From a virus: a stretch of 27,163 bases of DNA. Under the pieces are notes generated by a model. That model worked only from the letters and a program-made list of their open reading frames with translations. It ran no database searches and was not told the origin of the DNA. Shown piece after piece: positions 4,558 through 25,212 of the stretch. The translations under genes were made by a program, and so were the position numbers. The DNA is taken from positions 1 to 27,163 of IMG/VR virus record IMGVR_UViG_3300050821_002351; one strand, written 5' to 3'. Position 1 is the first letter of the stretch, and every line of letters begins with the position of its first letter.

Positions 4558-4730
4558 TGTGGAACTATCTGACGCCATTTCATGTGATCTATGAGCCTGC
4601 TAGGCGGTATGAGATTCCCGAAAGATTCAGGATCATTCTAGACGCGCCCTATATTCTATGCATTGATACATGGGCGAAATGTCGAATAGAGAATTGGGAT
4701 TGCGGCATTGTTGATCATCTGAATGCCTGA
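4557..4730 (+). CDS. Small hypothetical protein
   Basis: This 57-residue protein begins at an ATG in a TGATG overlap with the previous stop (4555-4559). It is aromatic-rich (MWNYLTPFHVIYEPARRYE) with RIILDAPYILCIDTW in the middle. No family is recognised. Its last eight bases overlap the start of the HNH endonuclease gene. The endonuclease may have inserted at this gene end, so the C-terminus could have been altered. Confidence 0.5.
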   Translation: MWNYLTPFHVIYEPARRYEIPERFRIILDAPYILCIDTWAKCRIENWDCGIVDHLNA

Positions 4731-5205
4731 AACTCTTAAAGAACTTCTGAGCTATGAACCGGAAACGGGAATATTCCGGTGGAAAAGTTCGCGCGGTCGC
4801 GTAAAAGCTGGAGATGTAGCTGGCTGTTCTAAAAATTCTTGCGGCTATGTCCAGATAAAAGTTAAGGGATTAAGCTGTAAGGCTCATAGATTGGCATGGC
4901 TCTTTGTTTATGGAGATATTCCAAAGGAAGAAATTGACCATATCAATGGGATTCGTGCGGACAATAGAATATGCAACCTAAGGCTTGCAACAAGAGCGCA
5001 GAACCAAAGAAATAGAGGAATAACGAAACGCAGTTCGAGCGGCTTAAAGGGCGCCTATTGGTATCCAAGGCTAAATTGTTGGGTAGCCAAAATCCGCGTT
5101 AATGGAAGACTGCTTCATCTAGGATATTGGCCTAGCAAATATTCGGCTCATAATGCCTATAAATTTGCTGTTCCTTTACTGCATAAAGAGTTCGCTCGTG
5201 TCTAG
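4723..5205 (+). CDS. HNH homing endonuclease with C-terminal AP2 domain
   Basis: This is a 160-residue protein. The HNH core has H55 (KAHRLAW), DHINGIRADN at 72-81 with the general-base H73, and NLRLAT at 85-90. Residues about 107-150 (GLKGAYWYPRLNCWVAKI, then LHLGYWPS) form an AP2-type DNA-binding domain. HNH-AP2 proteins are typical free-standing phage homing endonucleases that nick intron- or gene-free alleles and spread by repair. The gene is more AT-rich than its neighbours. It overlaps both flanking genes by eight bases, so it sits seamlessly between an unknown gene and the portal. No intron is evident around it. Confidence 0.9.
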   Translation: MPETLKELLSYEPETGIFRWKSSRGRVKAGDVAGCSKNSCGYVQIKVKGLSCKAHRLAWLFVYGDIPKEEIDHINGIRADNRICNLRLATRAQNQRNRGITKRSSSGLKGAYWYPRLNCWVAKIRVNGRLLHLGYWPSKYSAHNAYKFAVPLLHKEFARV

Positions 5206-7488: not shown

Positions 7489-8404
7489 AGCAACCGTAGT
7501 AACAGGAGATACGCGCGCCGATTTCATGGCGTCCAAGGGGAAGATTGCGCCTTCGCAGGGTCTTCCTACCAAGCCAGTCGAGTCCAAATCCATTAAGACG
7601 GAAGTCAGCAAAACCGCTGAGAAGCAGGAAACGGCTGTAGTCGAGGCTAAGGCTGCGGAGCAGAGCAAGGAGAAAAGCAGCGTCGATGAGCGCATTTCCG
7701 AGCTTACAGCTAAGCGCCGGGACGCTGAAAAGCGTGCTGCGGATGCTGAAAAGCGTGCTGCGGAACTGGAACGGGAGCGCGATATTGCTTTGAGGCCCAA
7801 GGATTCGAAGCCGAGGCCGGAAGATTTCCAGGATCCAGTGAAATATGGAGAGGCATATGGGGAATGGCTGGCTGACCAGAAGGTAAGGAAAAAGGATGAG
7901 GCTGACCGCAAGGAAGCGGAGGAAAAGCGCCAGACTAGGCTGACTGCTGACTGGAATCAGCGCTACAAGAAGTGCCAGAAGGAAATCGACGACTTTGACG
8001 ACGTGATCATGGCGGAGCCTTTGTCTCTCCAGCCCTGGATTCAGCAGGCCATGTTCGAATCAGAGGTTGGTCCGCAGTTGCATTACTACTTCTCCAAGGA
8101 TCGGGACGAGGCAGGAAAGGTAAACGCTATGCCAGCTCCTGCTGCATTGCGTTATCTGGGCCGGATTGAAGTCAGGATTGAGGCTGAAAACGAGGCTCGC
8201 GGCAAGAAAAGCAATGTGGAAGTGCCTCCGCTGCCAGTTCCGAAACTTGAGCCATTCCGTCGCGCCAAAGAGGCTCCAGAGCCTATCAAGCCGATCGAAG
8301 GAAGCCAGCAGGTAGGCCCTGGCGGGGTGGTGGATGCAGACGGGAACGTAACCGGCAGTTATTTGGAGTACCGGAATGCCCGCCGTGCGGGAAAGATCAA
8401 ATAG
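7481..8404 (+). CDS. Capsid scaffolding protein
   Basis: This is a 307-residue, highly charged, helical protein lying between portal and coat, the usual scaffold position. Residues about 65-105 are a coiled coil with an internal repeat (DAEKRAA at about 86 and again at 93, then ELERERD), and a second charged helix runs through KVRKKDEADRKEAEEKRQ. A more ordered part follows (EIDDFDDVIMAEPLS to RYLGRIEVRIEAE). Scaffolds of this class copolymerise with the coat in the procapsid and leave before or during packaging. P22 scaffold is 303 residues. Sequence alone does not show the coat-binding helix-turn-helix, though the basic C-terminus (YRNARRAGKIK) is compatible with one. Confidence 0.82.
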   Translation: MGEATVVTGDTRADFMASKGKIAPSQGLPTKPVESKSIKTEVSKTAEKQETAVVEAKAAEQSKEKSSVDERISELTAKRRDAEKRAADAEKRAAELERERDIALRPKDSKPRPEDFQDPVKYGEAYGEWLADQKVRKKDEADRKEAEEKRQTRLTADWNQRYKKCQKEIDDFDDVIMAEPLSLQPWIQQAMFESEVGPQLHYYFSKDRDEAGKVNAMPAPAALRYLGRIEVRIEAENEARGKKSNVEVPPLPVPKLEPFRRAKEAPEPIKPIEGSQQVGPGGVVDADGNVTGSYLEYRNARRAGKIK

Positions 8405-8411
8405 ACCGACG

Positions 8412-8428
8412 AATGGTCATTGACCATT
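8412..8428. promoter_or_regulatory. Perfect palindrome, operator-like
   Basis: AATGGTCA (8412-8419) and TGACCATT (8421-8428) are perfect 8-base arms around a single T. The site begins eight bases after the scaffold stop and overlaps a TTGACC hexamer that could be a -35 element. It is too tight for a good RNA hairpin, so a dimeric DNA-binding protein is the better guess. No matching regulator gene is in the window apart from the mini-HTH protein. Confidence 0.4.
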
Positions 8429-8450
8429 AGCAATAACAGGATACTATACA
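8420..8450 (+). promoter_or_regulatory. Weak sigma70-like promoter candidate
   Basis: TTGACC (8420-8425) and TATACA (8445-8450) are 19 bases apart, in a locally AT-rich gap after the scaffold gene. A second interrupted dyad (TATAC and GTATA around AGATATC, 8445-8461) follows. It could drive the two small genes at 8482-8954. Both hexamers and the spacing are suboptimal. Confidence 0.35.
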
Positions 8451-8481
8451 GATATCGTATACAAACTAATGGCACAATCTA

Positions 8482-8805
8482 ATGGATCCCGCGCTGGCAT
8501 TGGCTCTTTCGCTAGAAACTGCCGACTATCTGCAAACTCGCCAAATCATAGACAGGCCGCAGCAATGCGAAACTGTAGGAAAGCGGATTACCTGTTTAGA
8601 TCGTTCGGAACAGAATCCGATGCTTGGTCGCCATCCTTCGCAATCCAGAGCGGCTATATTCTTCGGAATTGGAGCTGCATCTACCGTGACACTGAACCAA
8701 GTATTGCCGGAACCGTGGAAGTCACGACATATCTATACGGTGATCGGTTTCGAAGCAGCTATAGTCTCTCATAACGCATATATGGGTGTGCATTTCCATT
8801 TCTGA
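8482..8805 (+). CDS. Small membrane protein of the NPxLGRHPS type
   Basis: This is a 107-residue protein. After an N-terminal helix (ALALALSLETADYLQTRQI), it has a cytosine-pair loop region with C29 and C38, then NPMLGRHPSQSR (about 45-56), a hydrophobic segment (AAIFFGIGAASTVTLNQVLP) and a C-terminal YTVIGFEAAIVSHNAYMGV. The D-x-x-QTR...NPxLGRHPS...IGxEAxxVxxN layout matches an uncharacterised family of small phage and bacterial proteins, with about two membrane helices. Its role is unknown. The only upstream in-frame codons run into a stop at 8467, so ATG 8482 is the start. It sits between scaffold and coat, an unusual place for a membrane protein. An overlapping frame from 8469 has no recognisable content. 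Confidence 0.72.
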   Translation: MDPALALALSLETADYLQTRQIIDRPQQCETVGKRITCLDRSEQNPMLGRHPSQSRAAIFFGIGAASTVTLNQVLPEPWKSRHIYTVIGFEAAIVSHNAYMGVHFHF

Positions 8806-8954
8806 TGTGCTGGGCATGCGACCGTTTATGGGTCTTGCGGGCGTTCGGTTATGAAGGCAAGAAAAGAGGCCATCCCCGCAAAAGACCGTGGGGATTCAAT
8901 TCTCATAAGGTTTATCGGGCTTTGACAGCGAAAAAATTGTCGTGCTATAAGTAG
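8805..8954 (+). CDS. Tiny basic CxxC protein
   Basis: This 49-residue reading frame starts in a TGATG overlap with the previous stop (8803-8807). It begins MCWACDRLWVLRAFGYEG, is rich in Lys and Arg, and has a C-x2-C pair near the start and a further Cys near the end. No family is recognised. The coat promoter lies inside its last 11 codons, so the gene and the promoter share sequence. The coupling-type start is the main support. Confidence 0.48.
   Translation: MCWACDRLWVLRAFGYEGKKRGHPRKRPWGFNSHKVYRALTAKKLSCYK
8922..8951 (+). promoter_or_regulatory. Near-consensus sigma70 promoter for the coat gene
   Basis: The -35 hexamer TTGACA (8922-8927) is a perfect match. After an 18-base spacer, TATAAG (8946-8951) matches the -10 at five of six positions and is preceded by TGC, an extended -10. 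An A6 tract lies in the spacer (8931-8936). Transcription would start near 8958 and run into the coat gene. It is the strongest promoter-like sequence I see in the window, and it suits the high copy number of coat protein. It overlaps the end of the 49-residue gene. Confidence 0.75.
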
Positions 8955-8957
8955 TAC

Positions 8958-9074
8958 TTAGAGCGCCGGTCTGGGCGACATACAGACGGAGTAGCGAGCC
9001 TTAATCGCGCAAATATCGTGTTGGCCCCCATGGGTAGTCGGGACCGAAATCCCAACTAACTTTTCGGAGGCCAC
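8958..9074 (+). other. Structured 5' leader of the coat gene
   Basis: About 117 untranslated bases separate the predicted transcription start from the coat ATG. CCGGTCTG (8966-8973) pairs with CAGACGG (8983-8989) with one bulged G, and GTTGG (9020-9024) can pair with CCAAC (9052-9056). The unpaired end carries CGGAGG (9065-9070), a strong Shine-Dalgarno four bases before the ATG. The leader may protect the mRNA or set the coat translation rate. It matches no riboswitch class that I recognise. Confidence 0.45.
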
Positions 9075-10334
9075 ATGGCCAATACGGAACTTACGATTTC
9101 CAAGATCACCAACGAGGCGTTGATGGTCCTGGAAAATTCACTCACATTCACGATGTGTGTGAACCGCGATTACGACGATCAATACGCGGTCGTAGGCGCG
9201 AAAATTGGCGACACGGTAAACGTCCGTCGCCCGGTGCGGGTGATCGGTACGACCGGCCCTAACCTGAATATCGAGGATTTTAATGAAACCTCTATTCCGG
9301 TTGTCCTGACGACTCAGTTCCACACGGATACGCAGTTCGGCACTAAAGAGCTGGCGCTTAACGTGGACATGTTCAGCGATCGCGTTCTTAAGCCCCAGAT
9401 TGCCGCCATTGCCAACAAGATCGACTTTCAGGGTACTACGACCGCTGCCAATGGCATTGCGAACATCGTAGGAACCCCAGGAACACCGCCGACAGCGCTC
9501 CTCACCTACCTTACTGCAGCCGCCTTCCTGGACGCTGAAGGGACGCCTCGGGATGGTGAGCGCTCATGTGTGATCGAGCCTTTCACGTCGGCGACCATTA
9601 TTGATGCCCTGAAGGGCTTGTTTGTGCCTCAGGACAAGATCGGATCCCAGTACATGCGGGGCCTGATGGGCCGTGATTCCGCAGGGATGAACTGGTATAA
9701 CGATCAGAACATTGTCAGTCACACGTTCGGGTTCGCCACTGGCGCAACCACCATCACCGTGAACGGTGCGAACCAAGGATTGGCAACCGGCTGGGCGGCA
9801 ACCTCGACCATCAGTATCAACAACTCAGCCAATAACGTCACCCTGCAGGTAGGGGATGTCCTTCAGTTCCCTGGATCGAATGCGGTCAACCCTCAGAACC
9901 GTCAGGCTTATGGCTCCAACAGACTGCGTAACTTCGTGGTAACTGCGACCGCTACCCAGTCCGGGGCGGGTAACTTCAACGTAGTGGTATCTCCCGCTGT
10001 GATCTACGGCGGACAGTTCCAGAACGTGACAGCTGCCCCCACGACGGGCGGCACGGTTACCTTCACCAGCCTGCCGACTGCTGGAGCTTCGAGCGCGGTT
10101 ATCTCTCCACAGAATATCGTGCTGCACCGCAATGCCCTGACTTTGGCAGTAGCAGACTTGGAATTGCCGGAGGGTGTCCACTTCGCGGGTCGAGCATCGG
10201 ATGAAGAAATTGGCCTGTCGATTCGCGTGGTGCGCCAGTACACGATCAATAACGACGCCATTCCAACCAGGCTTGATGTCTTGTTCGGATGGGCGATGCT
10301 ATATCCGGAGCTTGGCTGTCGGGTTGCGGCCTAG
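9075..10334 (+). CDS. Major capsid protein, P22 coat family (HK97 fold with I-domain)
   Basis: This is a 419-residue coat protein, close to P22 gp5 (430). The family is recognisable in LTISKITNEALMVLENSL (residues 6-23), KIGDTVNVRRPVRV (43-56), FGTKELALNVDMFSDRVL (88-105) and MRGLMGRDSAGMNWYNDQN (194-212). Residues about 224-345 are Thr/Asn/Gly/Val-rich beta structure and correspond to the inserted I-domain that stabilises P22 coat folding. The fold resumes at VLHRNALTLAVADLELPEG and ends DVLFGWAMLYPELGCRV. It assembles with the scaffold onto the portal. The gene has its own promoter and strong ribosome-binding site, and the GroES-like protein upstream may assist its folding. Confidence 0.95.
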   Translation: MANTELTISKITNEALMVLENSLTFTMCVNRDYDDQYAVVGAKIGDTVNVRRPVRVIGTTGPNLNIEDFNETSIPVVLTTQFHTDTQFGTKELALNVDMFSDRVLKPQIAAIANKIDFQGTTTAANGIANIVGTPGTPPTALLTYLTAAAFLDAEGTPRDGERSCVIEPFTSATIIDALKGLFVPQDKIGSQYMRGLMGRDSAGMNWYNDQNIVSHTFGFATGATTITVNGANQGLATGWAATSTISINNSANNVTLQVGDVLQFPGSNAVNPQNRQAYGSNRLRNFVVTATATQSGAGNFNVVVSPAVIYGGQFQNVTAAPTTGGTVTFTSLPTAGASSAVISPQNIVLHRNALTLAVADLELPEGVHFAGRASDEEIGLSIRVVRQYTINNDAIPTRLDVLFGWAMLYPELGCRVAA

Positions 10335-10343
10335 GAGCTAACG

Positions 10344-10745
10344 ATGCCTGGACGCGCTCTAGGGGTAATGACCAGCCAGTCTTGCGGCGAGACGCTGCAG
10401 CTTTTGTACATCGCTACCACCGTTTCGCAGCATCTTTTTATTGCAACCATCCCATGCATTCTAACTGCGGTTACTTACCGTATTCGTGTGGGATCAAGTT
10501 CAGGGACTTTCCAGATCGTCAAATGCCCAACTGGTACGGCTCCTGCAAATGGCACAGTGATTACATCGGCCATTGACATTAGCGCAACTCCTACGGCTGA
10601 TACGACGCTTACAGCTGCGCTGACGGTTGGAAATAACAGTTCTAATGTAACTCTGAATACTGGCGATTCTCTTGCAGTGGTTATCGGCGGAACGATGACT
10701 AGTGGTGTAGGGCTGATCCAACTTTTCGTAGAACCTGTAGCTTGA
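10344..10745 (+). CDS. Putative virion-associated beta-rich protein
   Basis: This 133-residue protein has AGGAG (10333-10337) seven bases before its ATG. After an N-terminal part containing LLYIATTVSQHLFIATIPC, the rest is Thr/Ser/Gly/Val-rich beta structure with LNTGDSLAVVIGGTMTSGVG and a terminal LFVEPVA. Small proteins of this composition directly after the coat gene are often decoration or head-surface proteins, but I cannot name a family. It is about 10 bases after the coat stop, so probably co-transcribed. Confidence 0.65.
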   Translation: MPGRALGVMTSQSCGETLQLLYIATTVSQHLFIATIPCILTAVTYRIRVGSSSGTFQIVKCPTGTAPANGTVITSAIDISATPTADTTLTAALTVGNNSSNVTLNTGDSLAVVIGGTMTSGVGLIQLFVEPVA

Positions 10746-10758
10746 TAGCGAGGAATAA

Positions 10759-11499
10759 ATGCCTAATCCCGGACCAGCAACTAACATCGTAAGTAACTCC
10801 ATGGCGGAGCTGATCACGGTCAGCCAGCCCTCGCGTACGATCTATCCCTCCGCCCAGTTAACGGCTCTGACGGCGCCCGGTAATGGGACCATGAGTTTTA
10901 ACTATGTGAACGTGCCGAATGCGTTCACCTGCAGTCGGGTCGATGCTCTGGTGGCCTTTTCGGTAGCTTCGAGCGCAACCACTAATACCTATGGTCTGGC
11001 TATCACTGCCATTGCCGGCATTTATACGCAAACTTCTCTCGGAGCTGGCACTGCTACTACCTTGGGTCTGACCGCGCTGACCACTGGATCTGTGACGGTC
11101 AGTTATAGCGTAGCCAGCAACACGGCAGGGGTGACCCAGCTTAATCAGAGTGCGCTGCGGAATATCTCTGTACCTCTTGGCTTTGCCTCGGTCTATCAGG
11201 GTGAATACCTGGTGGGATTTGCGATTTCGACCAATACCACATCGATCGGGCTTTCCACCACCGCACTTGGTCAAACGATGTCTATCTACGGTGGCGCACA
11301 GCTGCAAACCGGTCAGAACTATGCAGTCGAATTTACGGGCGCAACCGCCACTTCTGGTGGACTTTTCCCAGGCATGGGCGTGCACTCGGTAACGCAAAGT
11401 GCTCCGCTGGCTACCTATGCGGTTTCCGACATTAATGCTACCGGCGTAAACCTTTCTGCTGCTAATATTGCTCTGGTGTTCCGCAATGTCACTGTCTAA
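10759..11499 (+). CDS. Putative virion surface protein, copy A of a duplicated pair
   Basis: This is a 246-residue protein rich in Thr, Ser, Ala, Gly and Asn, predicted all-beta, without a signal peptide. It is plainly homologous to the protein at 13767-14468. Shared blocks include SRTIYPSAQLTALTAP, YGLAITAIAGIY, SVASNTAGVTQLNQ, TTALGQTMSIYGG, AVEFTGATATSGG and YAVSDINATG. By eye about two thirds or more of the last 130 residues match. I infer a capsid decoration or head-fibre protein because of its position just after the coat. Its high Ser/Thr/Asn content would suit modification by the glycosyltransferase encoded next. The family is not recognised beyond phage virion-like proteins. Confidence 0.72.
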   Translation: MPNPGPATNIVSNSMAELITVSQPSRTIYPSAQLTALTAPGNGTMSFNYVNVPNAFTCSRVDALVAFSVASSATTNTYGLAITAIAGIYTQTSLGAGTATTLGLTALTTGSVTVSYSVASNTAGVTQLNQSALRNISVPLGFASVYQGEYLVGFAISTNTTSIGLSTTALGQTMSIYGGAQLQTGQNYAVEFTGATATSGGLFPGMGVHSVTQSAPLATYAVSDINATGVNLSAANIALVFRNVTV

Positions 11500-11501
11500 A
11501 A

Positions 11502-12233
11502 ATGAAAGCAGAACTGGTAGTACAGGACTTTTCTGGAGTCCATAACAAGGATGTAGACGCTACTCGTCTACGCCTTACCAAAGGCGGCACCTGGAAGAAG
11601 CAGCGAATTGCCGTTGTTATTCCTGCCGCCGATACCATCCCTGCCAAGGTAGCTCTTAGCCATTGGAATCTAGCCTTTCCTCCGAATAATGGGGTAGTCC
11701 GCATTTTGGCTCAAGGCATGGAAGTCGGGGACGCTTATACGACCGCGATCGAGCAAATCCTGGCTCATCCGGAAATAGGGAAATGGGAATATCTGCTGAC
11801 GATCGAGCACGATAACGCCCCTCCTGCAGACGGTGTTATGAAGCTTCTGGAGCGGATGGAAGAGCATCCAGAGTTGTCGTGTATCAGCGGTTTGTATTAC
11901 ACCAAGGGTATCGACGGATGTGCTCAGATCTGGGGTGATCCTAAAGATCCAGTCCTGAATTTCCGTCCGCAGCCTCCCGATCCAGAGGGAAAGCTAGTGG
12001 AATGCTGCGGTACCGGGATGGGGTTTGCTCTCTGGCGTATGAAGATGTTCAAGGATCCGAAGCTTCGCAAGCCATGGTTCAAAACTCAGACCAAAGACGG
12101 CATGATGACCCAGGATTTGTACGCTTGGCAGGACTTTCGCAAGAATGGCTATCGGTGCGCTATCGACTGTAGCGTGAAGGTTGGACACTATGATTTAACT
12201 GGAGTGTTCGGTCAGCCCGACATGATGTATTAG
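11502..12233 (+). CDS. Glycosyltransferase, GT-A / family 2-like
   Basis: This is a 243-residue protein. A first beta-strand and nucleotide-sugar region is KQRIAVVIPAADTIPAKV (33-50), and LLTIEHDNAPPADGVMKLL (98-116) holds an E-H-D variant of the DxD metal/sugar-nucleotide motif. Further on come CCGTGMGFALWRM (168-180), TQDLYAWQDFRKNGYR (203-218), the position of the catalytic acid motif, and VGHYDLTG with H229. These match phage-encoded GT-A enzymes that transfer a sugar from a nucleotide donor. The acceptor is unknown; a virion protein from the neighbouring genes is the likely guess because no lipid-carrier or O-antigen genes are nearby. It starts two bases after the copy A stop. Confidence 0.8.
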   Translation: MKAELVVQDFSGVHNKDVDATRLRLTKGGTWKKQRIAVVIPAADTIPAKVALSHWNLAFPPNNGVVRILAQGMEVGDAYTTAIEQILAHPEIGKWEYLLTIEHDNAPPADGVMKLLERMEEHPELSCISGLYYTKGIDGCAQIWGDPKDPVLNFRPQPPDPEGKLVECCGTGMGFALWRMKMFKDPKLRKPWFKTQTKDGMMTQDLYAWQDFRKNGYRCAIDCSVKVGHYDLTGVFGQPDMMY

Positions 12234-12241
12234 GAGAAGTT

Positions 12242-12391
12242 ATGGATACCAGCGTTGATGTGCATGTGGCCGCAGCGGAAGAGGCTTTGAGGCAGATAGT
12301 TGCCGTGGCTACCGCTCAGGAAGCCGATCTGTCCAAGAAAAATGCATTTGTTGCGACCATGCAGGCCGCGCTAGCAGCCCTGAAAGCTTGA
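12242..12391 (+). CDS. Small helical hypothetical protein
   Basis: This 49-residue, Ala-rich protein is predicted to be a single amphipathic helix or helical hairpin (HVAAAEEALRQIVAVATAQE, then AFVATMQAALAALKA). A strong Shine-Dalgarno (AGGAGAAG) lies just before the ATG. It sits directly after the glycosyltransferase and its stop abuts the end of the minus-strand HNH gene. The role is unknown; it could be a partner or oligomerisation peptide. Confidence 0.62.
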   Translation: MDTSVDVHVAAAEEALRQIVAVATAQEADLSKKNAFVATMQAALAALKA

Positions 12392-12784
12392 TTATGAAAA
12401 TTTACCTAGCTTGTCTCTTTTTACATGATGTTTAGCGGCATGTTTTCCATTGCTTTCGCAAAGCGCCAGATTATCTGGGCTATTGTCATCTCGTATGCCA
12501 TTTTTGTGATGAACCGCTTCTTTCTTGGTAAGCCGTCTTCCAACGATTTGTTCCATAATAAGTCTATGCTCAAGAACATATCCAAGCTTAGTAGCATCAG
12601 GATGATTGGGAGCGTAGATATAGATGTATCCATCGGAAGCATGCAATACCCCGCCCCTCCATTTAGGATTACCGGAGCCTGATTTAGATGTGTCATAACA
12701 TTTTTGGCTACAAAAGAACTTTTTCTGACACGGAAAAGTTGAATATGAATTGCCACATTGTTTGCAAATTCTGGAGACTGGCAT
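12392..12784 (-). CDS. HNH homing endonuclease with N-terminal zinc ribbon
   Basis: This is a 130-residue protein on the strand opposite all its neighbours. The first 30 residues carry C7, C10, C25 and C29 (CKQCG and CSQKC), a zinc-ribbon-like module. The HNH core is EHRLIME (72-78), VHHKNGIRDDN (91-101) with the H92-H93 pair, and DNLALCES (104-111). It probably cuts phage DNA lacking the gene and spreads by repair. The ATG at 12784 has AGAGG upstream. An in-frame start at 12940 would add a low-complexity FFFLFF extension read through the methyltransferase gene and is rejected. The gene is AT-rich and exactly fills the gap between two plus-strand genes. Confidence 0.85.
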   Translation of the reverse strand: MPVSRICKQCGNSYSTFPCQKKFFCSQKCYDTSKSGSGNPKWRGGVLHASDGYIYIYAPNHPDATKLGYVLEHRLIMEQIVGRRLTKKEAVHHKNGIRDDNSPDNLALCESNGKHAAKHHVKRDKLGKFS

Positions 12785-13379
12785 GAGGTCCTCTGCTAAG
12801 TTGAAATCGATAAAGGCAGAGCCAAAGTCTATCACAAGATTGGATGTAGGTTGTGGGAAAAACAAGAAAAAGAATGATGATGGTCTTGGAGAATGGACCG
12901 GTATCGACCAATACAAGATGGATGGGGTTGATGTCGTCATGGATGTGCGCGCCCGCTGGCCGTATGACGATGATTCAGTGGACGAGGTTCACTCGAGCCA
13001 TTTTATTGAGCATCTGACTGGCGAAGAGCGGGTGCATTTCTACAATGAGCTTTATCGGGTTCTCAAGCCTGGAGCGAAAGCAACGATCATTACTCCGCAT
13101 TGGGCCAGCAATCGGGCCTATGGCGATTTCACCCATGCGTGGCCTCCAGTGAGCGAGATGTCCTTTTACTATCTGTCGAAAAAATGGCGGGAGACGGACG
13201 CCCCGCATACGGATATTCGCTGGAATCCTAAAGGCTATTCCTGCGATCTGGAATGCGCTTGGGGCTATGGAATGCGGCCTGATCTTGTGACCCGCAACAG
13301 CGAATACCAGCAGTTTGCTATGGCAAATTATAAAGATGCCTGCTTAGACACTCATTGCACCATGACCAAGAAGGCATAA
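12783..13379 (+). CDS. Class I SAM-dependent methyltransferase (Methyltransf_11-like)
   Basis: This is a 198-residue protein. Motif I is RLDVGCG at 19-25 (SAM binding), GIDQY at 40-44 fits motif II, and VHSSHFIEHL (69-78) with ELYRVLKPGAKATI (89-102) fits the later motifs. The fold is the kind seen in enzymes for O-, N- or C-methylation of sugars and small molecules; the target cannot be told. DNA methylation motifs (DPPY, NPPY) are absent, so it is not an obvious restriction-type enzyme. The ATG at 12783 is preceded by GGAG (12773-12776). It overlaps the HNH start codon on the other strand through the shared CATG. It probably works with the glycosyltransferase upstream. Confidence 0.8.
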   Translation: MRSSAKLKSIKAEPKSITRLDVGCGKNKKKNDDGLGEWTGIDQYKMDGVDVVMDVRARWPYDDDSVDEVHSSHFIEHLTGEERVHFYNELYRVLKPGAKATIITPHWASNRAYGDFTHAWPPVSEMSFYYLSKKWRETDAPHTDIRWNPKGYSCDLECAWGYGMRPDLVTRNSEYQQFAMANYKDACLDTHCTMTKKA

Positions 13380-13766
13380 ATGGCGACCGCGACGGCGTTT
13401 GGACAGACTAACGGGCAATATCATGCTTCGGTAACGGCTACGCCGACTGCTACGCCATTCCAACTTGTCGGCAATGCTCAGAGCGTGCGGCAGCAGATCA
13501 GGATTGTAGTAGCCAACACGACTTCAGGATTGGTGCATATCGCTTGGGGGCAGACCGCACAGATTGCCACGAACATTGCCGGCGCTGGTGGCACTCCGAC
13601 CGCAGGCCAGCAAACACCGCTAGCCAGCAGCGGAGGCGGGATGCTCACGTTTCTTGGGTCTGAAGTCGAAGTACTGGATTTCCCGGTCAATTCATTCTTT
13701 GCTTTGTGGTGTGGCACTGCAGCTGCAACGGCTGACGTATATATGTCTCCTGGAGAAGGGGTCTAG
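13380..13766 (+). CDS. Putative virion-associated protein
   Basis: This 128-residue, beta-rich, Thr/Ala/Gly-rich protein starts immediately after the methyltransferase stop. It contains QQIRIVVANTTSGLVHIAWG, a Gly/Ala/Thr-rich loop, LTFLGSEVEVLDFPV and a terminal DVYMSPGEGV. Small phage head or tail-associated proteins of this size often end in a VxxTPGEG-like segment, so it is likely a virion component, but I cannot name it. It precedes copy B of the duplicated surface protein. Confidence 0.6.
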   Translation: MATATAFGQTNGQYHASVTATPTATPFQLVGNAQSVRQQIRIVVANTTSGLVHIAWGQTAQIATNIAGAGGTPTAGQQTPLASSGGGMLTFLGSEVEVLDFPVNSFFALWCGTAAATADVYMSPGEGV

Positions 13767-14468
13767 ATGGCCCTGCATGCCGATCTTCCATCAGGTCTAG
13801 CCTCGACGGGGATTGGCCCCCTAAAGATCCCGAACCGGACGATCTTTCCTGATGGCAATCTGACAGCCATTACTGCCCCGACAATGGGCAGTATGAGTTT
13901 TCAGTACTTGCCTGTAGCAGGGGCATTCAGTGCCAGCCGGGTTGATGTTCTGGTCGGAATGTCAGTAGCCTCGACCGCTTCTGCCGTTACCTACGGCTTG
14001 GTCATCACAGCCATTGCAGGGATTTACAGTAATAGTGCTTCGACGCTGAATTCGCTTTCTACCGGCTCGACCACGGTCAGTTTCAGTGTTGCCAGCAATA
14101 CGGCAGGCCAGACGCAGCTTAACCAAGCGGCTGTTCGAGCTATCTCGGTTCCGATGAACGTTTCGTTCAATCCTGGCGAGTATTTCGTGGCGTTTGTGCT
14201 TTCCACGAATACCAGTTCGATCGGAGCGGCAACTACAGCCCTTGGACAGACACTCTCGATGTATGGCGGCAATCAGTTGCAGACTGCCTCTAATATCGCG
14301 GTAGAGTTCACCAATGCTACGGCTACATCAGGCGGTTTGTATGCCGGCATGGGGGTGCATTCGGTAGCCCAGAATGCGGCATCAGCGACTTATGCGGTAT
14401 CTGATATCAATGCTACGGGGTCTGCTCTTTCCGCAGCTAACATTGCGCTTATATTTCGTAATGTCTGA
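13767..14468 (+). CDS. Putative virion surface protein, copy B of a duplicated pair
   Basis: This 233-residue paralogue of the 10759-11499 protein shares SRTIYP/NRTIFP, YGLVITAIAGIYS, SVASNTAGQTQLNQ, TTALGQTLSMYGG, AVEFTNATATSGG and YAVSDINATG. The N-terminus differs (MALHADLPSGLAST) and a ~10-residue internal segment is missing relative to copy A. It starts right after the previous stop (TAG then ATG) and its TGA overlaps the gp4-like start. Keeping two diverged copies suggests two distinct structural positions or two receptor specificities. All-beta, no signal peptide. Confidence 0.72.
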   Translation: MALHADLPSGLASTGIGPLKIPNRTIFPDGNLTAITAPTMGSMSFQYLPVAGAFSASRVDVLVGMSVASTASAVTYGLVITAIAGIYSNSASTLNSLSTGSTTVSFSVASNTAGQTQLNQAAVRAISVPMNVSFNPGEYFVAFVLSTNTSSIGAATTALGQTLSMYGGNQLQTASNIAVEFTNATATSGGLYAGMGVHSVAQNAASATYAVSDINATGSALSAANIALIFRNV

Positions 14469-15424
14469 TGGCACAACCTCTGAACATAATCTCGTCCGCC
14501 TTCCGGTCGATAGGTGCATTCGGCTCAGGCGACACCATAGGAACCGCCGAGACTAACGACGCGTTCTATCTGCTTAACGAAATGCTGGATCAGTGGTCAA
14601 ACGACCACTTGCTGGTATTCTCGGTACAGGAAGTCATTCTGGAGCTTGTCGGTGGACAATACATTTACACCATTGGCCCGGGCGGTTCTGTGGGTTCATC
14701 TTTTACCGGATCCGTTAGCGGAACTGTGCTTACTGTCACTAATCTCGCATCGGGTGCTATCTCTACTGGACAGATTATCTCTGGTTCCGGTATTACTGCA
14801 GGTAGCGCCATCACGAGCCTCGGAACGGCTTTTGGCGGCAATGGTAACAACGCAATAGGGACCTACAATCTTAATCTGTCGTCTCCCTCGACAGGAAGTA
14901 TCACCATCACCTCTTACCAGCCGCGTCCCATGCGGATCAATACGGCCTTTGTGCGTGTCGTGAACAGCATTACCGGGACGCTCGATTATGACGTTGATGT
15001 CTGGCCTTACGAGCGCTACCAGCAGATAGGAATCAAGACTCTGCCTGGACCGTGGCCGAAGATTATCTCGATGCTGCCTACGGAGCCGCTAGCGAGCCTG
15101 TATTTCTTCCCCAATCCTAGCCAAGGGGAGATGCATATCTTTGTCGATACGGTGCTGAACAACTTCTCCACCGTCAATGACAATATCGTGCTGCCGCAAG
15201 GCTATCAGGGGGCTATGCACTGGGGCTTGGCTGAATTGCTTATGCCTGAGTATGGAAAGCTTGAGCCGACCCAAGTACAGATGATCCAGAAGTTTGCAGC
15301 TGCCGGCAGGTCGTTAGTCCGTCGCACCAATATGAATCCACAGGTCCCCGCCACATTTGATGATGTGCTATTGCAGCAGATTCGCAAGGATGCTGGCTGG
15401 ATCCTACATGGCGGGTTCGCATAA
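14468..15424 (+). CDS. P22 gp4-like tail accessory / head-completion protein
   Basis: This is a 318-residue protein whose ends match the P22 gp4 family, which binds under the portal and starts tail assembly. The N-terminal part reads ISSAFRSIGAFGSGDTIGTAE, then DAFYLLNEMLDQWSNDHLLVF. The C-terminal part has YFFPNPSQGEMHIFVD, VLPQGYQGAMHWGLAELLMPEYG and RRTNMNPQVP. P22 gp4 is only 166 residues. Part of the extra length here is a Gly/Thr/Ser-rich beta module at about residues 77-149. P22 gp4 also has a muralytic activity; no separate lysozyme motif can be seen here. The TGA of copy B overlaps its ATG, and its TAA overlaps the next ATG. Confidence 0.87.
   Translation: MAQPLNIISSAFRSIGAFGSGDTIGTAETNDAFYLLNEMLDQWSNDHLLVFSVQEVILELVGGQYIYTIGPGGSVGSSFTGSVSGTVLTVTNLASGAISTGQIISGSGITAGSAITSLGTAFGGNGNNAIGTYNLNLSSPSTGSITITSYQPRPMRINTAFVRVVNSITGTLDYDVDVWPYERYQQIGIKTLPGPWPKIISMLPTEPLASLYFFPNPSQGEMHIFVDTVLNNFSTVNDNIVLPQGYQGAMHWGLAELLMPEYGKLEPTQVQMIQKFAAAGRSLVRRTNMNPQVPATFDDVLLQQIRKDAGWILHGGFA
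14696..14914 (+). repeat. Inserted beta-module in the gp4-like protein
   Basis: About 73 residues with FTGSVSGTVLTVTNLASGAIS, TGQIISGSGITAGSAIT, LGTAFGGNG and GTYNLNLSS. The same module, diverged, is present in the next large gene at 16087-16290. The surrounding gp4-like sequence reads naturally across it, which points to a domain insertion into a loop. Confidence 0.6.
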
Positions 15425-15678: not shown

Positions 15679-17328
15679 GTGAGCGATTTTGACTTCTGCG
15701 GACCTACTTACACTGCTCGTTCCATCTATGCGGATGACGAGGAGTGCATTAATTGGTACCCAGAAGTCCTAGAGGTAAAGCGTCCTGACGGGCGCGGTCA
15801 GGTCAATCTCTATCCTGTTCCCGGCAAGACCACGCTCCTGACCTTTGCAGACCTAGCAGAAGTCCGAGGACTAGGCGTATTCAGCGGCTCGACCATCCTG
15901 ATAGCCGTCTGCGGATCCAGCGTCTACAGCGTCTCTACGGGCTTTGTGGCGACTTTCGTTGGAAGTCTAGCTACTAGCGCAGGGCCTGTCTCGATCGCGG
16001 ACAACGGCACACATGTAATGCTGGTGGATGGCAATAGCCGTTATGTCTATGTGCCAAGCACTGGCTACTTTTCCAGCATCGGTACCGGAGCCTCGTTCAA
16101 TGGGACGATGGCTGGATTTACCCTGACCGTTAATTCGATGACGAGCGGGTTCCTGGGGCTTTTCCAGACCGTAAGCGGAGCCGGGATCACTCCGGGCACA
16201 CAGATTACAGCCTTTGGAACAGGCACAGGAACAACCGGAACCTATACCATCAGTCTGACCAATACACTCGGTCCAGAGGCAATGACTACCGTTGATGGTG
16301 CCTTTACGGGAGGCTCCCAGGTAGGGGAAGTAGACGGATTTTTCGTCTATGCGAATCCAAATAGCAATCAATGGGGAGCCAGTAACCTGAATTCTCCTGC
16401 CAGTCAGCCGCTGTCTGTCGGGCTTAAAGACGGGTCGGCGGATTTCCTGGTTACCCTGATTGTAAACAATCGGGAAGTCTTCCTGCTCGGGGAGCGTTCG
16501 AGCGAGGTTTGGGTAGATCAAGGATCATTCCCTTTCCCGTTCGTCCGGCTTCCGGGAACCTCGACCCAGCATGGCTGCGCGGCTCAGTATTCCATTTCCC
16601 GCCTTGGGGGAAGCTTTGCATGGTTAGGGAAGGATTCTCGTGGGCAGGGAATAGTCTGGAAGATGAACGGATATATCCCGGAACGCATCTCGACCTATGC
16701 AGTGGAAAATGCGATTACGAGCTATCCGGTCATCTCTGATGCGCGGGCCTATACATACCAGCAGGGAGGGCATGAGTTCTATGTCCTGACCTTGCCAAGC
16801 GCCGATATCACATGGGTCTATGACGACACCTCTAGGCTTTGGCACAAGAGACTATATCGAGACAATCTGAATGTGCTACATCGCGACAGAGGCAATTGCG
16901 CAGCGGTCTTTTCGAACAAAGTCGTGGTAGGCGACTGGTCTAATGGCAATCTCTACTCGCTCGACCTTGGCGTTTATACCGATGCTGGCGGGGTTCCGAT
17001 TTGGCGCATGCGGCGCGCTCCTCATTTGACAGCAGACCTAAAGCGCGTGGCATACCAAGAATTACAGATTCAATTTGAACCTGGAGTTGGGCTTGTTACA
17101 GGCCAAGGGAGCAATCCTCAGGCGATGCTTACATATTCAGACGATGGGGGATCCACATTCTCCAATCAGCATTGGACATCTGTAGGAGCGATAGGACAGT
17201 ATAAGAATCGGGCTCGCTGGCAGCGTCTCGGAATGGGTCGCGACCGGATCTTTCAAGTAGAAGTGTCAGATCCCGTGAAATGGGTGATAATTTCGGCTAA
17301 CTTACGGGCGCAAGCATCGGCACATTAA
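15679..17328 (+). CDS. P22 gp10-like packaged-DNA stabilisation / tail hub protein
   Basis: This is a 549-residue beta-rich protein starting with GTG directly after the previous TAA. Family marks are GPTYTARSIYADDEECINWYP (8-28), RGQVNLYPVPGK (39-50), LGVFSGSTILIAVCGSSVY, and the QLxQYG-like cycle of beta blades through SIADNGTHVMLVDGN, RSSEVWVDQGSFPFPFVRLPG, HEFYVLTLPSADITWVYDD and LWHKRLYRD. P22 gp10 (472 residues) forms a ring plugging the tail after packaging. About 65-70 extra residues here (about 137-204) are the repeated beta module. It is followed at one-base overlap by the next structural gene. Confidence 0.88.
   Translation: MSDFDFCGPTYTARSIYADDEECINWYPEVLEVKRPDGRGQVNLYPVPGKTTLLTFADLAEVRGLGVFSGSTILIAVCGSSVYSVSTGFVATFVGSLATSAGPVSIADNGTHVMLVDGNSRYVYVPSTGYFSSIGTGASFNGTMAGFTLTVNSMTSGFLGLFQTVSGAGITPGTQITAFGTGTGTTGTYTISLTNTLGPEAMTTVDGAFTGGSQVGEVDGFFVYANPNSNQWGASNLNSPASQPLSVGLKDGSADFLVTLIVNNREVFLLGERSSEVWVDQGSFPFPFVRLPGTSTQHGCAAQYSISRLGGSFAWLGKDSRGQGIVWKMNGYIPERISTYAVENAITSYPVISDARAYTYQQGGHEFYVLTLPSADITWVYDDTSRLWHKRLYRDNLNVLHRDRGNCAAVFSNKVVVGDWSNGNLYSLDLGVYTDAGGVPIWRMRRAPHLTADLKRVAYQELQIQFEPGVGLVTGQGSNPQAMLTYSDDGGSTFSNQHWTSVGAIGQYKNRARWQRLGMGRDRIFQVEVSDPVKWVIISANLRAQASAH
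16087..16290 (+). repeat. Inserted beta-module in the gp10-like protein
   Basis: Residues about 137-204 read FNGTMAGFTLTVNSMTSG, LFQTVSGAGITPGTQITAFG and TGTGTTGTYTISLTN, matching the module at 14696-14914 in order (GT-LTVT...SG-GIT-G-IT...GTG...GTY). It interrupts the beta-propeller-like array of the gp10 family. Confidence 0.6.
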
Positions 17329-22483: not shown

Positions 22484-23518
22484 ATGGCTACCTACAATCT
22501 TAGCCCAATTGGCAACGAATTCGAGCAATTTTTCGGTGCTGCCGGGGCTAATTTTCCTCCGAATCTGCCCCTAAATGGCGGATTCCTGAACACGTTCCAG
22601 GCAGGAACCTCTACGCCTATTGCCACGTTTGCTAACAATTTAGGATCTATCCAGAACTCTACCACGATGCAGTTAGGGCCTGATGGCCGCTTTGCGGGGG
22701 CTATCTGGCTGCTGTCTGGGCAGGCGTACAAGTTCCAGCTTACAGACTCGACCGGATTCCAGATATGGATTGTCGATAACGTTTCCGGAATCAATGATTC
22801 CTCGCAGATCACTAACGCCGAGTGGATAGCATCGGGCGCGGTTCCTACTTACTCGAGCGCTACTACCTTCACGACCCCAGGAAACACGACCGGGACATTT
22901 CAGCCTGGGCGAAGAGTAAAGGCTACTGTAACAGCAGGCACCGTATATGGGACAGTCTTCACAAGCACGTTCGGTGTATCCACGACCATTGTGCTTACGA
23001 TGGATACTGGACAGGCACTCGATAACGGATTGAATCAAGCTCTGGTTGGGTTGCTAGGGGAGAGCAATCCTAGTGTTCCGCAGATACTTCCATATAACAC
23101 GGTATTTTTCAGGGCGCATAGATCATCCAACCAAACTACTGGTACTACCGCAATATTTGATGTGATAGATAGCCAGACAGGAGGAACAAATTACAGCAAT
23201 AGCACTGGAATATTCACCGCACCTTTCACTGGATGGTATCACTTCGATTGCGCATTAGCTGTGTCCAATACTGGAGGCGCGGGGATTATTGCTGGCAGCT
23301 CCATAACTGCAAATTCTGTTAGAGTTGCAGGATATACAGTAACCATAGCAGCGGGAGTTGTTGGAGGATGGGGAATATCTACCACATGCCCATTAACTGC
23401 AGGACAGACCGTGCTTTGCGGAAACGATTCCGGATTCACTGCCTCATATATTCTTGTCTCTGGAGCTTCTCTAGGGGATACAAGTTTTTGCGGTTATCTG
23501 GTGGCTAGAACAGCATGA
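22484..23518 (+). CDS. Tail fibre with C1q-like tip domain
   Basis: This is a 344-residue protein. Residues 1-105 form an adaptor module (LPLNGGFLNTFQAGTSTPIATF, LGPDGRFAGAIWLLSGQAYKF, DNVSGIND) shared with the next gene, probably the tail-binding domain. Residues about 118-190 form a second beta module common in phage tail proteins (SATTFTTPGNTTGTFQPGRR and KATVTAGTVYG). The C-terminal 140 residues resemble a C1q/TNF-like trimeric head (FFRAHRSSNQ, FDVIDSQTGGTNYSNSTG, IFTAPFTGWYHFDCAL, FCGYLVA), likely the receptor tip. A 40-base gap with a short inverted repeat (CTTTTA 22449-22454 and TAAAAG 22468-22473) precedes it. Its stop overlaps the tailspike ATG. Confidence 0.8.
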   Translation: MATYNLSPIGNEFEQFFGAAGANFPPNLPLNGGFLNTFQAGTSTPIATFANNLGSIQNSTTMQLGPDGRFAGAIWLLSGQAYKFQLTDSTGFQIWIVDNVSGINDSSQITNAEWIASGAVPTYSSATTFTTPGNTTGTFQPGRRVKATVTAGTVYGTVFTSTFGVSTTIVLTMDTGQALDNGLNQALVGLLGESNPSVPQILPYNTVFFRAHRSSNQTTGTTAIFDVIDSQTGGTNYSNSTGIFTAPFTGWYHFDCALAVSNTGGAGIIAGSSITANSVRVAGYTVTIAAGVVGGWGISTTCPLTAGQTVLCGNDSGFTASYILVSGASLGDTSFCGYLVARTA

Positions 23519-25212
23519 GCGTATTTCTTTCTCCGGTTGGGAATGGTGATGTTTTCCTGAATCCTCCGGCATCTCTTGCTGGTGCTGGATTGCCTGCTAA
23601 TGGTGGATTCATAAATACTTATTTGGCCGGCACTACTACGCCAGCGGCAACCTATACAACATCCTTAGGAAATGTAGCCAATACAAATCCTATCGTACTT
23701 ACCCCGGCTGGCATGGCACCTTTTGAAATTTGGCTTACCGGCGGTATTTCATACAAGTTCATTATCACAGATATTTATGGCGTCCAAATAGGCCCCACAT
23801 ATGACAATATTGTCGGGCAATATGATGCCACACAAGTTTCATATACGCCTGGAGGTACTGGAGCCGTAACAACTACGGTAGCTATTGAGTTAGGCCGCCA
23901 ATGGATAACACCGGAAGATTTTGGAACTAATGTTGGAACTGGAGGAGACGATACTACAGCTTTAAGCGCATGGATAACTTATCTTAACACTGTATCCACC
24001 AATCAGTTTGGGAAGATGGCTTCCACTGTCTACAACATTAGTGCCCCTCTTCCTCAAATCAATAGCAGCGGAGTGTGGATTCTTGGGGCTGGTTCTGATG
24101 ACTTCCATAACGGAGGAACCGGAACCGATCAGACCTTCATAAAATGGATAGGAAGCTCTAGTTCTGGAACCATGCTCACGATAGCTCCTACCAGTGGAGC
24201 ACAGCAATACTTAGTAGGCAACCGACTTTTGGGGGTGAGTTTCGATTGCAATAGCGGAACCATTGCTAACGGGGTTTTGCTTCAATCTATACGGGGCGGC
24301 GAATTTGAATTACGCGTCAAGGATGCCGGGACCGCCGGACTTACTTGCGGAGTAGTTGCTTCTCTCACTTCGGATCCTCGCGACTTCCAGATAAACAAAA
24401 TTCGATATAAGGGAAGTCAGACAAATGGATCGGGAGTTAACGGCATCTCATTAGTGCTCAATGGAGATTCTGGAGCCAATCCGTCTTTCAATATATTCGA
24501 AATCATAGATATTGTTCATTCAAATGCTTTGGCTATTCAGTCAATTAACGCGGACTCGAATATTTGGATAAATGTTCGATGTTTCAAAACAGGAGGGGGA
24601 ACGGCTAACAATTCTATCGAATGGGATGGTGGAGCTACTGCAGCACAGGCTACCAGAAGCGAATTATTCCATGTTCTTTATACTACGGTGGCGGCTCATG
24701 CTAAAGGGGCAGGATTTGCAGTAGCTCCAGGTAATATCAAGATCCTATCTCTTAACAAAGAGAACAATACGCCAGATCCTGTTGTAGATGGTGGGGCACA
24801 GGTTTCATGGTGGGATAGCGATACTTGGGTTACCGGAAGATGGGCTTCCTATGTTCCTGTGTTAACCGCAGGCTCGGGAGCATTCGGAGTAAGTCCTCCA
24901 ACGGCAACTGGGCGCTATATTCTCACTGGAAATGTTGTCAACTTCTCGATTGTCATTACATTTCAGGCAGCCAACAGTGTTGGAACTGCGGGAAGTTTCA
25001 TTGGTGCTACCCTGCCTATTACATCAGGAGCATCTTGCTCTGCGGCTGCCACTGGATGGGAAACTACAACAGGAACAGCTTTGATGGCCAAGATAAACTC
25101 GGCTGCTACCACAATGTTTATTTTCAAATATGATGGGGTTTCTTTTGTGGGTGCAAACAGCTTTGTGGAGATTATCAGTGGAAGTTACGAAGTCGTGCCT
25201 CCAGTCATCTAA
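23515..25212 (+). CDS. Tailspike with right-handed beta-helix
   Basis: This is a 565-residue protein starting in an ATGA overlap. Residues 1-115 repeat the adaptor of the fibre upstream (LPANGGFINTYLAGTTTPAATY, SYKFIITDIYG). Then comes QWITPEDFGTNVGTGGDDTTALSAW, the DDT-x-A start typical of phage beta-helix tailspikes. Residues about 160-430 fit a parallel beta-helix (GVWILGAGSDDF, GVLLQSIRGGEFELRV, GISLVLNGDSGANPS). The last 120 residues (GRWASYVPVLTAGSGAFGVS, then GRYILTGNVVNFSIVITF) form a small beta domain common at tailspike ends. Such spikes bind and often cleave or deacetylate surface polysaccharide; substrate and catalytic residues cannot be read. Confidence 0.82.
   Translation: MSVFLSPVGNGDVFLNPPASLAGAGLPANGGFINTYLAGTTTPAATYTTSLGNVANTNPIVLTPAGMAPFEIWLTGGISYKFIITDIYGVQIGPTYDNIVGQYDATQVSYTPGGTGAVTTTVAIELGRQWITPEDFGTNVGTGGDDTTALSAWITYLNTVSTNQFGKMASTVYNISAPLPQINSSGVWILGAGSDDFHNGGTGTDQTFIKWIGSSSSGTMLTIAPTSGAQQYLVGNRLLGVSFDCNSGTIANGVLLQSIRGGEFELRVKDAGTAGLTCGVVASLTSDPRDFQINKIRYKGSQTNGSGVNGISLVLNGDSGANPSFNIFEIIDIVHSNALAIQSINADSNIWINVRCFKTGGGTANNSIEWDGGATAAQATRSELFHVLYTTVAAHAKGAGFAVAPGNIKILSLNKENNTPDPVVDGGAQVSWWDSDTWVTGRWASYVPVLTAGSGAFGVSPPTATGRYILTGNVVNFSIVITFQAANSVGTAGSFIGATLPITSGASCSAAATGWETTTGTALMAKINSAATTMFIFKYDGVSFVGANSFVEIISGSYEVVPPVI

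Follow-up and report, generated by a model that had tools for sequence, protein, structure and literature searches.

A surface-protein domain linked to a glycosyltransferase and a methyltransferase in uncultured tailed phages: a candidate virion-glycosylation module

Described systems and the cassette of the window

To our knowledge, few systems with glycosylated phage particles are on record, reportedly including Che8 and other mycobacteriophages described by Freeman et al. in 2023, and it is largely open how a phage glycosyltransferase (GT) chooses the protein it modifies. A candidate module of this kind is described here from an uncultured tailed phage, IMG/VR record IMGVR_UViG_3300050821_002351 (27,163 bases; the whole stretch is referred to as the window). 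It consists of a GT (11502-12233), an S-adenosylmethionine (SAM) methyltransferase (MT, 12783-13379) and a Ser/Thr/Asn (S/T/N)-rich surface-protein domain, here labelled PAR, carried by two paralogous proteins, A (10759-11499) and B (13767-14468). A preliminary description of the window, made from its letters alone, had read this block as a virion-glycosylation system in which the enzymes decorate the duplicated proteins with a methylated sugar.

The closest described systems share parts of this arrangement. The coat protein of the archaeal virus STIV is glycosylated, possibly by A197, according to the accessible sections of PMC10551542. Like the window GT, A197 is a small stand-alone viral GT-A enzyme, and it is the best structural match, but there was no sequence-level match to it in the solved-structure search and those sections mention neither a PAR domain nor an MT partner. 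In the eukaryotic giant virus PBCV-1, the viral GT domains and methyltransferases of A064R and A061L build and methyl-cap the coat-protein glycan, and chlorovirus GTs are mostly predicted to be soluble and cytoplasmic (accessible part of PMC9614988). A064R combines three domains in one protein and uses an N-glycan terminus as acceptor, whereas the window has separate genes tied to a surface domain. The joining of GT and MT in one polypeptide is echoed by a 427-aa protein of one surveyed locus (L065:11354-12637; loci are numbered with the prefix L), a GT-like part followed by an MT part, which lies downstream of a PAR-GT-MT set and is the only such fusion among the loci scanned. In mycobacteriophages, phage GTs and covalent virion glycans are reported, the glycans being at the C-termini of capsid and tail-tube subunits (as cited in PMC12619734 and PMC11256854); the acceptor is the major capsid or tail-tube protein, and the available portions of these two papers mention no PAR domain and no constant GT-MT pair. 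The window GT is encoded beside structural genes, between the coat and gp4-like genes, as in virus-encoded virion glycosylation systems.

The GT (plus strand, 243 aa) had been called a GT-A enzyme, and its predicted structure (pLDDT 86) bears this out. The model adopts a GT-A fold with Z scores of 19.1 to 2c0n and 17.2 to LH3, the best match being STIV A197 (Z 19.1, 170 residues aligned, 2.2 A). The best fold neighbours are this viral GT with a suspected coat-protein target and GTs directed at proteins, polysaccharides or glycolipids. By sequence the window GT matches only PHROG 1574, of unknown function; PF00535 (Glycos_transf_2) does not match it. Among 47 aligned sequences (the window GT and 46 relatives, sampled closest first), 25 match PHROG 12406, "glycosyltransferase", and four match PF00535 at E up to 0.01 (best 0.0023). 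The alignment has a mean column identity of 74% and 58 invariant positions. E102, D104, N105, D205 and H229, which we take to mark DXD-like, base and metal positions, are invariant in all 47, while H103 varies. No hydrophobic segment of the membrane type was found in either GT or MT.

The MT (plus strand, start taken as 12783) is a class I SAM methyltransferase, and the earlier assignment is confirmed by its match to Methyltransf_11 (4.1e-8). It is more variable than the GT, with a mean column identity of 42% (25 rows). Comparison with the close relative L003 gave a dN of 0.11 for the GT, with silent sites saturated. For the other three genes dS exceeds 1, and the dN/dS ratios are 0.09 (MT) and 0.10 and 0.07 (paralogues). 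The low dN and dN/dS values, read with silent sites near or at saturation, indicate that GT, MT and both paralogues are under purifying selection.

The two Ser/Thr/Asn-rich proteins noticed at the ends of the block are indeed homologous (blastp, 62.4% identity over 221 aa, E 1.6e-84). Both are on the plus strand and both are candidate glycan acceptors. Paralogue A (246 aa) has an N-terminal MPNPGPA tag followed by a C-terminal PAR (profile E 2.2e-56), and paralogue B (233 aa) is a PAR without the NPGPA tag; their S+T+N contents are 33% and 31%. With a minimum length of 60 aa and an E cut-off of 1, no other ORF of the window matches the domain profile. L003 holds both copies, each nearest its own counterpart (87% and 83%), so the duplication is older than the split between the window and L003. 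The sequence comparison gave no branching order for the duplication relative to L085.

The PAR profile, seeded by the two paralogues alone and run for six iterations over the 1,439 ORFs of the first loci, reached 68 ORFs and was stable at 143 ORFs over the whole set. PAR occurs either as a stand-alone protein of ~240 aa or as the C-terminal part of longer S/T/N-rich fibre-like proteins of up to 1307 aa, and in 68/68 ORFs the match stops 11-22 residues short of the C-terminus. One such protein, L090:2155-3630, has a collagen-like GPTGP stretch and is from a 12.4-kb record without a GT. Relatives of paralogue A were not found in INPHARED, nor did the profile match any PDB sequence at E up to 1. 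Pfam and PHROGs searches with 52 members gave one Pfam family, matched by one member, and three PHROGs with one member each, all weak. PAR is an S/T/N-rich surface-protein family poorly covered by Pfam and PHROGs profiles.

The PAR fold was predicted for paralogue B (pLDDT 78), and that of paralogue A is taken from this model. It is mainly beta, with a C-terminal beta-sandwich domain. The closest solved fold, at 15% identity, is 9jwb chain Z (Z 12.6, 150 residues aligned, 3.1 A). This chain corresponds to ORF25L of Anabaena phage A-4L and is part of the solved capsid asymmetric unit of cyanophage A4. The next matches are the Bxb1 tail tip (Z 11.5) and the Douge central fibre (Z 11.3), and the following rows are at 8.3; the capsid and tail-tip matches thus stand about three Z units above unrelated rows. 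A-4L has no GT or MT annotated, many of its genes being hypothetical, and "glycosyl" does not occur in the accessible text of PMC13033339, which describes the Douge structure.

Linkage of PAR, GT and MT across phages

The three genes were followed in samples collected from the GT, PAR and coat sides. The GT-side sample has 81 loci, made up of L001 and the top 80 IMG/VR loci among 214 confirmed stretches, with 76 distinct GT ORF sequences. An MT on the strand of the GT is present in 81/81, mostly right after it (median gap 31 bp, maximum 1774). PAR is recognized by profile in 72/81, always within 3.1 kb. In six further loci, profile-profile comparison recognizes a PAR-like C-terminus on an upstream S/T/N-rich protein (probability 86-99%, against 0.1-0.3% for four other window proteins as controls); these C-termini were picked by eye and compared in single pairwise runs with no calibrated library, and two of them (L015, L021) aligned over only about 90 columns. 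Further iteration of the PAR profile did not recruit the six. The last three loci without PAR, L012, L019 and L044, have 2,052, 1,935 and 2 bases upstream of the GT.

From the PAR side, a GT is found in 25/32 loci (22/29 plus L004, L030 and L031), and in another locus it lies at a different place on the contig; the query came largely from GT-positive loci and several contigs are common to the GT set, so this sample is not independent. The coat-side sample was gathered by two coat searches with neither GT nor PAR as query, which listed 160 loci. The count was restricted to the 83 that are 10 kb or longer: 15 have GT and PAR, 3 PAR only, none GT only and 65 neither (Fisher 6.7e-14), figures that are inflated by near-identical contigs. 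With near-identical positives merged, 11 have GT and PAR and p is 4e-11; with the negatives also halved it is 2.7e-8. The MT is present in 13 of the 15 double positives, and in the other two (L136, L137) the stretch ends 0.3 kb past the GT. Two of the three PAR-only contigs have a GT elsewhere. PAR and GT-MT thus appear to have been gained or lost together within one coat lineage, as far as the records reach. The comparison proposed earlier, of co-occurrence of the enzymes with the paralogues in related phages, comes out in favour of that reading: the surface domain, GT and MT are found together across very different phages, on contigs of 4.6 to 448 kb.

The unit is also present in MW202524, a circular environmental podovirus genome, with PAR, MT, GT and MT between the major capsid and stabilisation genes and three more genes in the same stretch annotated as beta4glucosyltransferase, gtA and yqgM-like. 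It is one of three environmental records of 42,585 bases from a single spring (with MW202718 and MW202743) that are the close INPHARED matches of the GT, each at 59.6% identity; the check for PAR and MT covered MW202524. A scan of GTDB gave one confirmed relative, on a 4.6-kb contig of a metagenome-assembled genome, which makes a lysogenic role unlikely.

The duplication, the feature first singled out, did not hold up as the key one. Two PAR ORFs are present in just 8 of the 81 GT loci, four of them being the window lineage and one (L016) a frame artefact, and also in several PAR-found loci. The tight bracket of PAR, GT, MT and PAR was seen in the window lineage (L002-L005) only; in L020 and L101 a looser bracket has the second PAR 3.5-4.2 kb after the MT. 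The recurring unit is PAR, GT and MT, and the duplication is incidental. An apparent PAR-GT fusion in L016 was discarded, the two being joined through an out-of-frame stretch. Elsewhere in the window, the consecutive genes 22484-23518 and 23515-25212 share an N-terminal domain (PHROG 26190) and differ in their C-terminal parts, possibly another duplicated surface pair.

The slot between the coat and gp4-like genes

The window has a P22-like gene order of terminase, portal, coat, gp4-like, head closure (Hc3 profile) and DNA ejection genes, and a near-identical sister contig of 35,854 bases extends it. The cassette fills a slot between the end of the P22-like major coat protein gene (9075-10334, plus strand; PF11651, 2.5e-33) and the start of a gp4-like/SU10 adaptor-like gene (14468-15424, plus strand; Pfam match under the curated cut-off), together with an HNH endonuclease gene and small ORFs. 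The plus-strand junctions are tight: 2 bp separate the paralogue A stop from the GT start, the MT gene is followed directly by the ORF at 13380, 13766 is followed by the paralogue B start at 13767, and the gp4-like ATG overlaps the paralogue B stop (TGATG at 14468). No Rfam match was found in 8400-15000, and promoter- and terminator-like sites are no commoner than chance. The gp4-like protein (residues 77-160) and the head-closure protein (15679-17328, residues 136-208) contain the same kind of insert (PHROGs 38233 and 21413).

The slot is hypervariable in the window's coat lineage (L193-L270), from 0 to 9.6 kb in the 47 loci with both borders found. A slot protein with N-terminal NPGP[AS] is present in 65/80 and 64/80 loci of the two coat searches, and NPGPA occurs in 147/277 loci. 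The 59 permuted motifs tried average 1.2 loci, and their matches come nearly all from ANPGP, a register shift of NPGPA. Only 12/80 GT-found loci have an NPGP[AS] protein, so the peptide belongs to the coat lineages and not to the GT. The NPGPA slot proteins have the N-terminal peptide in common and otherwise different bodies; the peptide is found on paralogue A and on stand-alone PAR proteins of several other phages, and is absent from paralogue B. Capsid surface modules seem to be exchanged at this site, and the NPGP peptide may be what docks them to this capsid type. In L234, whose coat protein is 67% identical to that of the window, the same slot (8831-13503) holds an NPGP-tagged 568-aa protein, a GT2 (3.9e-25), a C-methyltransferase, an HNH endonuclease and a rhamnosyl-O-methyltransferase (8.8e-59). 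Possible GTs beside the NPGPA proteins of L198 and L211 have no Pfam match and were not counted; neither were two candidates in L226, a 232-aa protein without a Pfam match and a 286-aa protein that matches a SET domain.

The HNH endonuclease was correctly recognized as such (HNH_3, 2.2e-10); its strand is minus (12392-12784). It had been listed within the sugar-modifying block, where it has no place: in the closest relatives, L003-L005, it is absent from the GT-MT junction. The start codons of this gene and of the MT overlap (CATG), and a relative with 57% identity occupies the same junction in a distant phage (L055, 10752-11231, minus strand). An HNH_3 domain present or absent at one site between close relatives fits the pattern of an HNH homing endonuclease, and the gene has probably entered the GT-MT junction as a mobile element. 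A second HNH endonuclease gene (4723-5205; PHROG 99, 2.4e-66) lies just 5' of the portal ORF and overlaps the portal as called.

Three small plus-strand ORFs complete the slot. The first, directly 3' of the coat gene (10344-10745), encodes a small S/T/N-rich (29%) protein. The 49-aa ORF between GT and HNH (12242-12391) is probably lineage-specific, since its sole matches, L002 and L082, belong to the same near-identical contig. The ORF between MT and paralogue B (13380-13766) has no family match and is fast-changing, with a dN of 0.39 against L003.

Possible targets of the enzymes

The cassette is probably a virion-glycosylation module, in which GT and MT put a methylated sugar on PAR-bearing virion proteins in the cytoplasm, using a host nucleotide sugar. 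With GT and MT both soluble, linked to a surface domain and located among head genes, decoration of PAR with a methylated sugar is the simplest reading. Possible benefits of such a coating are protection, adsorption tuning and evasion. In such a pathway, the soluble GT-A enzyme would take a nucleotide sugar made by the host and attach the sugar to hydroxyl residues of the PAR proteins during late assembly; the adjacent SAM enzyme would O-methylate the transferred sugar, rather than the protein; and the modified paralogues would sit as capsid decorations on the outside of the particle. In other phages PAR is the tip of a fibre-like protein. The original proposal of a methylated sugar on the two paralogues is thus retained as the best-supported reading, through the linkage of PAR, GT and MT; the duplication is not its key, and the HNH endonuclease does not belong to the pathway. 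The combination of sugar and methyl group gains independent support from the slot genes of L234, the GT-MT fusion of L065 and the gene set of MW202524.

Several observations weigh against this assignment. i) PAR has no invariant S/T column, the best position being 147, with S or T in 62/65. ii) The only solved sequence relative of the MT is a methyltransferase without an assigned role, and nothing marks the MT as a sugar methyltransferase. iii) Six of the 32 PAR-found records, fragments of 5-28 kb, are without any GT. iv) Among the 77 coat loci below 10 kb, PAR occurs without a GT in three (L085, L102, L233), MT alone in two (L133, L190), and GT and MT without PAR in one (L143), whose contig starts inside the GT. 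v) Both coat queries came from PAR-bearing phages, so the coat positives cluster near the query. vi) Pairwise distances over 77 loci are weakly correlated between GT and PAR (Spearman 0.10, p 0.04) and more so between GT and MT (0.49); the enzymes therefore do not track a particular PAR sequence. vii) In several loci (e.g. L050, L074) the gene next to the GT is not PAR and is often S/T/N-rich, so the acceptor could be that neighbour. L085 bears on the preliminary description too, which had named surface proteins kept without the enzymes as a finding that would speak against it. Its coat-gp4 interval holds two tandem paralogues and neither enzyme, which is partly that situation: the record is a 5.5-kb fragment and the enzymes could lie elsewhere.

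GT and MT might instead modify a host surface glycan, in superinfection exclusion or receptor masking, with PAR as a receptor-binding tip and the linkage arising from matching recognition and receptor change. Fibre-like proteins often have PAR as their C-terminal tip, mycobacteriophage tail-tip fibres show related folds, and phage GTs that alter the host serotype are known (accessible part of PMC12619734). This is nevertheless unlikely: the GT is without a membrane-type segment, the genes are inside the head module, and some PAR proteins stand alone in the coat slot and bear the coat-lineage tag. The gtr clusters that act on O-antigen comprise a membrane flippase, a lipid-carrier GT and a polytopic GT. 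Among the subset of sister-contig ORFs scanned no gtr-type membrane gene was recognized, nor any other sugar gene among 10 further ORFs of this 35.9-kb contig.

A target on the virion other than PAR, such as a variable S/T/N-rich fibre shaft or a neighbouring small slot protein, with PAR merely marking the same assembly, appears slightly less probable again. It would account for the weak GT-PAR distance correlation and for the loci in which the upstream neighbour of the GT is not a PAR gene, and the gene immediately upstream of the GT is S/T/N-rich (median 33% in 87 loci vs 17% for 956 other genes). PAR, however, is the element common to the loci, while the fibre-like proteins differ widely in length and shaft, and the stand-alone form is mostly PAR. 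Hypermodification of phage DNA is very improbable: phage GTs that act on DNA are known (cited in the accessible part of PMC12619734), but GT and MT are linked to a virion surface domain, the subset of ORFs scanned revealed no gene for nucleotide hypermodification, and the best fold neighbours of the GT are the viral enzyme with a suspected coat-protein target and GTs directed at proteins, polysaccharides and glycolipids.

Glycosylation of PAR itself also allows a more tentative proposal: PAR may be a portable acceptor domain, exchanged along with its own GT-MT pair between fibres and capsid decorations and marking proteins for a methylated glycan. Mean pairwise distance over the 77 loci is 0.33 for the GT and 0.75 for PAR, a contrast that constant chemistry on a diversifying exposed surface would be expected to produce. 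No description of a PAR-GT-MT unit in phages was found in the literature covered, partly in accessible excerpts, with most subscription papers and preprints outside that coverage. The unit suggests a role for a poorly covered family of S/T/N-rich surface proteins and, as three genes with a candidate acceptor domain, makes the target choice of a phage GT directly testable. It further raises the prospect that uncultured phages commonly carry methyl-capped glycans on their virions.

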